Source: Bacteroidota bacterium (GTDB lineage Bacteria; Bacteroidota; Ignavibacteria; UBA10030; SZUA-254). Taken from it: 64,000 nucleotides of DNA. The stretch lies in the NCBI GenBank assembly GCA_036522515.1, contig DATDFQ010000015.1, forward strand, positions 62,001 through 126,000, in the 5' to 3' direction. Position numbers and translations under genes: made by a program. Every line of letters begins with the position of its first letter. Within the stretch, counting starts at the first letter, position 1. Below the pieces are notes generated by a model. The model saw nothing but the letters and a program-made list of their open reading frames with translations, searched no databases and was not told where the DNA came from. This document shows positions 37,012 to 39,499 of this stretch, one piece after another.

Positions 37012-37596
37012 TCATCGGAGATCCGCCACGCCCTCGCGGCTTCCCGGTTTTTGCGCCGGAAGTCCGGCCGCGCAGAGGGGGCATTCGCCCGGAGGGTAGG
37101 TCTTGACGTCGAGGGTGACGACCGCGAAGAATTCTTCGAAACCGGCTTTTCCGCCGCTCCGGTCGACGATCGCCCCGATGCCCAGAACCGTGCCGCCGGC
37201 GTTCCGGACGATCGCCAGAATCTCGTGCACCGATCCGCCGGTCGTGATGACATCTTCACACACCAGGACGCGCTCTCCCGGAAGAATCTCGAACCCGCGG
37301 CGCAGAACGAGCGCGCCCTGCCGCCGCTCCGCGAAGATCGTGCGCGCCCCGAGCTGGCGCCCGACTTCCTGGCCCACGACGATTCCTCCGAGCGCGGGGG
37401 AGATCACCACATCCACCCGCTTCTCCTTGTACCGGCGGGCGATTTCACCGCAAAGGCGCGCGGCGTGAGCCGGATACTGGAGAATCCTGGCGCATTGGAT
37501 GTAAGAGGGACTGTGCAATCCGGACGTCAGGACAAAGTGCCCCTCCAGGAGGGCATCGGTTTCCCGGAACAGCGAGGTGATCTCTTCTTTCGTCAT
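37012..37596 (-). CDS. pyrE: Orotate phosphoribosyltransferase
   Basis: A 194-residue protein. The PRPP-binding loop is VLVCEDVITTGGSVHE. The N-terminal GHFVLTSGLHSPSYIQCARI and VDVVISPALGGIVVGQEV match PyrE, especially the longer thermophile-type variants with a C-terminal CPLC motif (GECPLCAAGLP), which may bind metal. It forms OMP from orotate and PRPP. Part of the murI operon. Confidence 0.93.
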   Translation of the reverse strand: MTKEEITSLFRETDALLEGHFVLTSGLHSPSYIQCARILQYPAHAARLCGEIARRYKEKRVDVVISPALGGIVVGQEVGRQLGARTIFAERRQGALVLRRGFEILPGERVLVCEDVITTGGSVHEILAIVRNAGGTVLGIGAIVDRSGGKAGFEEFFAVVTLDVKTYPPGECPLCAAGLPAQKPGSREGVADLR

Positions 37597-37633: not shown

Positions 37634-37909
37634 TCACAGGCTGTCGATTTGGGTAGCGAGGTCGAAATCCTTCGTCGTGAGCCCCCCGGCGCTATGGGTG
37701 GAAAGAGCCAGTGTGATCCTGTTCCACCGGATATCGATGTCGGGATGATGGTTCGCCCGTTCCGCCAGAAGCGAGACTGAGTTGACGAAGCCGATCGCAT
37801 GAACGAAATCCTTCATTTCCCAGGTCTTCCGGATTTCGGATCCGACGAGCTTCCACCCTTTCATCCCGGCGAGCTTCTTCGCGATTTGGTTCTTGGCAAG
37901 CAGCGGCAT
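37634..37909 (-). CDS. phhB: Pterin-4a-carbinolamine dehydratase
   Basis: A 91-residue protein of typical PCD length. The active-site histidines H54, H55 (RANHHPDIDI) and H72 (LSTHSAGGLT) are present. It dehydrates 4a-hydroxytetrahydropterin in recycling of pterin cofactors, and family members also act in folate-related or molybdopterin contexts. No aromatic amino acid hydroxylase is in the window. It directly follows the CADD-like gene (51-base gap) on the same strand, hinting at a shared pterin or folate theme. Confidence 0.93.
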   Translation of the reverse strand: MPLLAKNQIAKKLAGMKGWKLVGSEIRKTWEMKDFVHAIGFVNSVSLLAERANHHPDIDIRWNRITLALSTHSAGGLTTKDFDLATQIDSL

Positions 37910-37960: not shown

Positions 37961-38650
37961 TCACCGTCCTTGTGGCGAGACGAACTCCCGCTCGACGCCG
38001 TCGAGCAGTTTCAGCATGGCCCGGGCGGATGTCCGGGCTGCCTCGACACAGGAGCGCCTCTCTTCCGGGTCGAGCGCCCCGTTCGCGAGAATCTCCCGCT
38101 CCGATTGCGAATGGTGCACGTCGGCTTCCTGGTGCACCGTGAAAAATGAGAGCGCTTCGGGATCGGTGATCCCGTAAAACCGCTTCAGGCCGTCGATCTT
38201 CACTCCGGCCACCTCCGGGATCTGCGATTCGTACGCGTAGAGCGCCGAAACTCCTTCGAGGGAGGAAGCGTCGCGCGTGAGGGAACGCATCGTATCAAGG
38301 GCCTCTCTGGTTTCGGGAAGCAACCTGGTCTGCGCCGCCTCTTTGTCTGATATTCCCAGCGAGCGGGCGAACCGCATCCAGAGATCGGGATGATTTCCGG
38401 GCCCCCGTTCTTCTTCGATGAGATTCTCAAGGAGCACCTGCCGCACGGAGAGATCCGGCGTGTTCGCGTGTGTGGCGCTCAGGTATGTGGGGAACGCCTG
38501 CACGAAATGATGGTATTGCGCGGCATAACCCTTGAGCGCCTCCCGGCTCAGCTTGCCCATGGTCCATGTTTGGTAAAAGGGGTGCCGGAGCATTTTGTTC
38601 TGGTCAATGGCGTCGTCCAGCTCGCGCAAGAAGCGATCGACTTCGGTCAT
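37961..38650 (-). CDS. CADD-family protein, candidate self-sacrificing p-aminobenzoate synthase
   Basis: A 229-residue all-helical protein of the heme-oxygenase-like TenA/PqqC superfamily, CADD branch. Compared from memory with chlamydial CADD, all six dimetal ligands are present with a constant offset of one: E80, H87, E141, H173, D177, H180. The sacrificial tyrosine (CADD Tyr27) is Y26 in HPFYQTW and the lysine (CADD Lys152) is K151 in GVKIDGL. Another active-site tyrosine, CADD Tyr170, is F169 here. CADD makes p-aminobenzoate from its own tyrosine using O2, which replaces PabABC for folate. The following gene is a pterin carbinolamine dehydratase. Function is inferred. Confidence 0.87.
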   Translation of the reverse strand: MTEVDRFLRELDDAIDQNKMLRHPFYQTWTMGKLSREALKGYAAQYHHFVQAFPTYLSATHANTPDLSVRQVLLENLIEEERGPGNHPDLWMRFARSLGISDKEAAQTRLLPETREALDTMRSLTRDASSLEGVSALYAYESQIPEVAGVKIDGLKRFYGITDPEALSFFTVHQEADVHHSQSEREILANGALDPEERRSCVEAARTSARAMLKLLDGVEREFVSPQGR

Positions 38651-38683
38651 GGAATCTCCTTTGATGGTTGTGTGATGGTCCGG

Positions 38684-39499
38684 TTAAAATCCTTCCGCCT
38701 TCCGCACCCGGCCCAATTTTTGTCCGAGAAACATCTCCCCCACCTCGGTAAACTTGTAGGGGATATCGCTCACATAAAACTGAACGTTGGCCTTCTGATC
38801 GCTCGGGTTCCGCAATCCGAGCTCCGTCAACGTCTGCGCGACCTCCAGAGCCGTCGCCTCGCCGGAGTCGATCAGGCTCACCGCCCCGTCGAACACGCCG
38901 GCGATCACGTCCCTCAGGATCGGATAATGCGTGCAACCGAGGACAAGGGTGTCGATCTTCTGAAGCCCGAGCGGGAACAGGTACTCGCGCGCGATCAATT
39001 CGGTGGCCTTCTGCGCTATCCACCCTTCTTCCGCCAGAGGGACGAACAGCGGACACGCCTGGCCGACGACCGTGGCTGACGGATCGAGTTGCCGGATTGC
39101 GTTGGAGTACGCGTTGCTGGCAATCGTGCCGATCGTCGCGATCACGCCGATCCGCTTGTTCCTCGTCGCCGCCACCGCCGCCCTCGCGCCCGGCGCGATC
39201 ACCCCGGCGACGTGGACTTTCGAATGCTTCTGCACGACATCCAGCGCGACGGAGGAGACGGTGTTACAGGCGACCACGATCATCTTGACGTCGTGTCGGA
39301 CGAGAAAATCCGTATCCTGGGCGGCATATTCACGGACAACCTGGGCGGATTTCGATCCGTAAGGAACCCGCGCGGTGTCTCCGAAGTAGACGATATTTTC
39401 GTGCGGCAGCCGGCGCATGAGCGCTTTCACGACCGTCAGGCCTCCGATCCCTGAATCAAAGACGCCGATCGGCTTGGCCTGCTGGGACTGGTCGCTCAT
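38684..39499 (-). CDS. murI: Glutamate racemase
   Basis: A 271-residue protein. The two catalytic cysteines are C78 in VVACNTVSS and C189 in LGCTHYPIL. GVFDSGIGGLTV and FGDTARVPYGSKS complete the active site. It makes D-glutamate for peptidoglycan, so the organism has a cell wall. First gene of a ten-gene minus-strand operon. Two promoter-like sites precede it, the nearer of which would leave only about five untranslated bases. Confidence 0.95.
   Translation of the reverse strand: MSDQSQQAKPIGVFDSGIGGLTVVKALMRRLPHENIVYFGDTARVPYGSKSAQVVREYAAQDTDFLVRHDVKMIVVACNTVSSVALDVVQKHSKVHVAGVIAPGARAAVAATRNKRIGVIATIGTIASNAYSNAIRQLDPSATVVGQACPLFVPLAEEGWIAQKATELIAREYLFPLGLQKIDTLVLGCTHYPILRDVIAGVFDGAVSLIDSGEATALEVAQTLTELGLRNPSDQKANVQFYVSDIPYKFTEVGEMFLGQKLGRVRKAEGF

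Follow-up and report, generated by a model that had tools for sequence, protein, structure and literature searches.

Can a free-living bacterium make p-aminobenzoate (pABA) by consuming one of its own proteins? The question is raised by one gene in the window, the 64,000-nucleotide stretch of contig DATDFQ010000015.1 analyzed here, which a first-pass annotation had proposed to encode a self-sacrificing pABA synthase like Chlamydia trachomatis CADD. We conclude that the gene product is very probably a heme-oxygenase-like dimetal oxygenase, forming pABA from itself and replacing PabA, PabB and PabC in folate synthesis, because the whole CADD active site is present and the usual pABA genes are absent.

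A CADD-family protein with a complete active site

The open reading frame begins with ATG, preceded by AGGAGA a few bases upstream (Table 1), and is the only CADD gene in the genome. Its product scored 278.7 bits (E 2.9e-83) against the CADD-family profile TIGR04305, for which the cut-off is 200, and phmmer matched it to the solved structures 1RCW (Chlamydia CT610; E 8.5e-46) and 9PJ4 (E 2.6e-57). These E-values imply that the likeness to CADD is not a matter of chance. Together with 8VA9, which like 9PJ4 is named 4-aminobenzoate synthase, they are its best solved relatives; we take 9PJ4, a close sequence, to be NePabS, the Nitrosomonas europaea enzyme. Identity to 1RCW is 39%, and the AlphaFold model (pLDDT 95.9) has a helical heme-oxygenase-like fold whose top structural match is again 1RCW (rmsd 1.5 Å, TM 0.88-0.95).

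Table 1. Positions in the window of the CADD-family gene, its key codons and the genes of the same run
Feature	Position	Strand	Evidence
CADD-family (TIGR04305) self-sacrificing 4-aminobenzoate synthase candidate, 229 aa	37961..38650	-	profile, alignment, predicted model
Probable ribosome-binding site AGGAGA of the CADD gene	38655..38660	-	sequence
Tyr26 codon, equivalent of sacrificial CADD Tyr27 / NePabS Tyr25	38573..38575	-	alignment; invariant 104/104
Lys151 codon, equivalent of amine donor CADD Lys152 / NePabS Lys159	38198..38200	-	alignment; invariant 104/104
Tyr140 codon, equivalent of CADD Tyr141 / NePabS Phe148 (metal choice)	38231..38233	-	alignment; PMC11965152
Phe169 codon, equivalent of CADD Tyr170 / NePabS Phe177 (metal choice)	38144..38146	-	alignment; PMC11965152
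murI glutamate racemase, upstream gene of same run	38684..39499	-	profile, neighborhood comparison
phhB-type pterin-4a-carbinolamine dehydratase, 91 aa, next gene downstream	37634..37909	-	profile, neighborhood comparison
pyrE orotate phosphoribosyltransferase, downstream in same run	37012..37596	-	profile, neighborhood comparison

A residue-by-residue alignment with 1RCW, at a constant offset of one, pairs Y27 with Y26 and K152 with K151, and the metal ligands E81, H88, E142, H174, D178 and H181 with E80, H87, E141, H173, D177 and H180; all three carboxylate and all three histidine ligands are therefore present. Residues Y43, Y47, W92 and Y141 are also kept, as Y42, Y46, W91 and Y140, and Y170 is replaced by F169. 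We compared 104 family members, comprising the 80 named loci nearest the query, 23 proteins from a survey of the phylum and the window protein (some survey and named loci being from the same genome). All catalytic residues were invariant in 104/104, as were Y42, Y46 and W91, the counterparts of the activity-relevant Tyr41, Tyr45 and Trp99 of NePabS. Family and active site were thus observed directly, and both the residue matches and the family assignment of the first-pass annotation were borne out. The window protein belongs, as a complete and ordinary member, to a family that is known and widespread.

The mechanism is inferred from the two characterized relatives. The dimetal site would activate O2, and a radical would travel via the aromatic residues Y42, Y46, W91 and Y140 to Y26. 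The side chain of Y26 would then be cut out, leaving Gly, and its ring oxidized with O2 to the carboxylate, with the amine given by K151. Each copy of the protein would work once, one copy being destroyed for every pABA molecule.

The same fold also serves oxygenases with other substrates, and the protein might be one of these, of the PqqC, BesC or TenA type, in a cell that salvages its pABA. It does match Pfam TENA_THI-4 and, more weakly than TIGR04305, the profiles for PqqC (TIGR02111, 57 bits) and BesC (NF042919, 47 bits). These scores, however, fall far under the respective cut-offs of 240 and 500, and conservation of the sacrificial tyrosine and lysine and of the essential Y42 and Y46 in every member argues against such a role, as does the association, across phyla, of the CADD family with the absence of PabB (below). 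We regard this alternative as very improbable.

A short divergent CADD relative of 185 aa, about 25% identical, was seen at two loci, L026:1492-2049 (genome G109) and L027:344-901 (G160). It keeps the equivalents of Tyr26 and Lys151, has a shifted last metal motif (H-x2-E-x2-H), and carries Phe/Tyr at positions 140/169, the fourth pair, missing from the family proper. Both genomes contain DHPS and no PabB/TrpE match, which makes the short protein a candidate divergent pABA synthase.

Folate and pABA genes of the host

The genome assembly (3.50 Mb) is 99.9% complete, and family-by-family searches of it found neither PabB nor PabC. Its one chorismate-binding (PF00425) protein is TrpE, as judged from its PIAGT motif and the adjacent TrpG; PIAGT in TrpE corresponds to PIKGT in PabB. 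The one class-IV aminotransferase (Aminotran_4, 308 aa) is IlvE-like by inspection. We did observe other folate genes: folP is present, and folB (named by inspection) and folK lie side by side, all on contigs other than that of the CADD gene. The proposal that a CADD route takes the place of PabA, PabB and PabC is supported by these results, since the genome holds no full pabABC set and the protein has lost none of its metal ligands. Such searches could overlook a PabB that has diverged strongly, and salvage of pABA or folate by the organism is conceivable in principle.

A heme-copper oxidase is also encoded, implying that the host probably uses O2. The closest relatives of the window protein (74, 70 and 68% identity) come from Ignavibacteria MAGs of soil and groundwater, as judged by title, which would place the host in that part of the Bacteroidota.

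CADD and PabB across genomes

CADD and PabB were seldom found together. A survey of 296 genomes of the phylum contained 24 with CADD over the cut-off and 272 others. PabB over the cut-off occurred in 0/24 of the former versus 120/272 of the latter (Fisher p 3e-6, although the genomes are related and their independence is overstated, and the TIGR00553 cut-off is strict, being reached by 4/14 controls). Any PabB/TrpE-type match was wholly absent from 21/24 CADD genomes versus 5/272 others (Fisher p 2e-24, uncorrected for kinship). The matches in the remaining three CADD genomes (G000, G280 and G275) are TrpE-type proteins by inspection; G275 has an additional chorismate-binding protein adjoining a MenD-like ORF, which we read, again by inspection, as MenF. 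Within the window's own family, two genomes without CADD carry PabB-like proteins, a 655-aa PabB-PabC-like fusion in G255 and a protein with KGT in G172.

The pattern extends to named CADD genomes from about ten phyla, among them genomes of Cyanobacteria, Verrucomicrobia, Acidobacteria and Nitrosomonadaceae: PabB over the cut-off was absent in 38/39. The sole exception, a Chthonomonadales MAG, scored 335 against a cut-off of 328.4, and its protein may be TrpE. In many phyla a CADD-type enzyme thus takes the place of PabB. Respiration with O2 is consistent with the model but does not discriminate, as a COX1-family match was found in 80/80 genomes, with or without CADD.

As a separate observation, the 21 phylum CADD genomes lacking a PabB/TrpE-type match (G059, G043 and G271, for example) are apparently without TrpE and may need external tryptophan. 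We also note that L063 (JAGFIZ010000019.1), titled Bradyrhizobiaceae, encodes a CADD protein identical to that of G232, a genome of the window's class; this MAG is probably mislabeled.

The gene neighborhood

The CADD gene lies in a same-strand run, murI-CADD-phhB-pyrE, whose genes are 33-51 bases apart; a promoter-like site, recognized by consensus only, precedes murI. The first-pass annotation had drawn a pterin link from phhB. That gene does indeed follow, 51 bases downstream on the same strand, and murI, phhB and pyrE are all kept in three close relatives (L033-L035), as might be expected if the main role of the protein lay with phhB in pterin metabolism. However, a peptide deformylase sits between CADD and phhB in L034 and L035, no phhB match was found near CADD in the other compared loci, and neither phenylalanine hydroxylase nor any other pterin-dependent aromatic amino acid hydroxylase is encoded in the genome. 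With murI and pyrE also in it, the run looks like a mixed operon. We therefore consider a main role in pterin metabolism very improbable indeed. The adjacency stands and the link is weak: because the arrangement is local to L033-L035 and phenylalanine hydroxylase is lacking, the phhB neighbor says little about the function of the CADD gene. The window phhB is itself of note, as an orphan pterin dehydratase in a genome without an aromatic amino acid hydroxylase.

With these neighbors, the gene is not clustered with folate genes, a point that would favor a different substrate over pABA synthesis. Membership of a folate operon was considered as a general hypothesis and rejected: the first genes upstream and downstream in 45-47 relatives share no folate gene, with glycine cleavage and SHMT genes turning up only in isolated cases. 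Folate clustering does not define the family, however, because NePabS too lies outside a folate biosynthesis cluster (PMC11965152).

In a Kapabacteria/Ignavibacteria clade, CADD is followed by a conserved protein of the EgtC-like class II glutamine amidotransferase fold, with an invariant Cys2 and a score under the EgtC cut-off (L056:4703-5611, and in the same place in L045, L047, L058, L063, L067, L068, L069, L073, L078, L079 and L089).

The residue pair beside the metal site

Phe169 had been taken as a special loss of tyrosine and hence as a natural test of which tyrosines are needed. The family comparison contradicts this: Phe is the norm at 169, in 97/104 members. The 140/169 pair is Tyr/Phe in 86/104, Phe/Phe in 11/104 and Tyr/Tyr in 7/104, the Tyr140 share being inflated because one of the three peptide search patterns used for the named loci demands that residue and because these loci were chosen as the nearest to the query. 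Position 169 is in none of the patterns, and the phylum survey, which was pattern-free, gave Tyr/Phe in 23/23. The record titles of all 11 Phe/Phe members name Nitrosomonadaceae or Nitrosomonadales. A tree without Chlamydia CADD, made with columns 140 and 169 removed, shows a single change at position 140 and three or more at position 169. The need for a tyrosine here has, moreover, largely been tested already, as the NePabS studied has Phe at this position and both F177Y and F148Y were made (PMC11965152).

Both characterized enzymes, NePabS and CADD, carry minority pairs, and no natural enzyme with the majority Tyr/Phe pair is characterized in the literature examined. Since these unusual pairs lie beside the metal site, what is concluded from the two enzymes about metal choice may not apply to the majority of family members.

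NePabS, with Phe at both 148 and 177, works with Fe/Fe; its F148Y variant is cambialistic, its F177Y variant prefers Mn/Fe, and CADD variants at these two positions are reported to become cambialistic (PMC11965152). By alignment, Tyr140/Phe169 of the window protein is the same pair as in NePabS F148Y. By this analogy, the window enzyme should work with Fe/Fe and, somewhat more probably than otherwise, also with Mn/Fe; this prediction is the least certain step of the whole explanation. The enzyme could instead be strict, using only Fe/Fe like NePabS, whose Phe177 corresponds to Phe169, or only Mn/Fe like CADD, whose Tyr141 corresponds to Tyr140. The cambialism of F148Y, with its identical pair, and that reported for the CADD variants at both positions speak against strict use, which we see as a serious though rather doubtful possibility. 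We suggest, tentatively, that the commonest family form (Tyr140/Phe169) may be metal-flexible, accepting Fe/Fe or Mn/Fe, and that the Fe/Fe enzyme of Nitrosomonas and the Mn/Fe enzyme of Chlamydia may be derived specializations. If so, study of the window protein would give a first look at the general Tyr/Phe form.

Comparison with known systems

Overall, the central proposal of a CADD-type pABA route is right, and evidence from the entire genome now supports it well; the particular importance attached to Phe169 and phhB is not supported. At the genome level, these data widen the range of O2-dependent, single-turnover pABA synthesis to include bacteria of the Ignavibacteria type.

The heme-oxygenase-like oxidases PqqC, BesC and UndA share the fold of the window protein, but are only about 16-20% identical to it and act on free substrates. 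CADD (1RCW, 8VA9) shares the fold, the sacrificial tyrosine and lysine, the ligands and Tyr140, and differs in having Tyr170 in place of Phe169; it is described as using Mn/Fe, sitting in a folate gene cluster and having a proposed role in the host cell (PMC11965152, PMC13108848). For NePabS (NE1434), the function has been proven biochemically, and the enzyme rescues an E. coli strain devoid of pabABC (PMC11965152). It has in common with the window protein the family, the sacrificial tyrosine and lysine, Tyr42, Tyr46, Trp91, the six ligands, Phe169 and a free-living host, whereas it differs in its Phe148 at position 140, an additional loop some 10 residues long and a gene that lies beside glyA.
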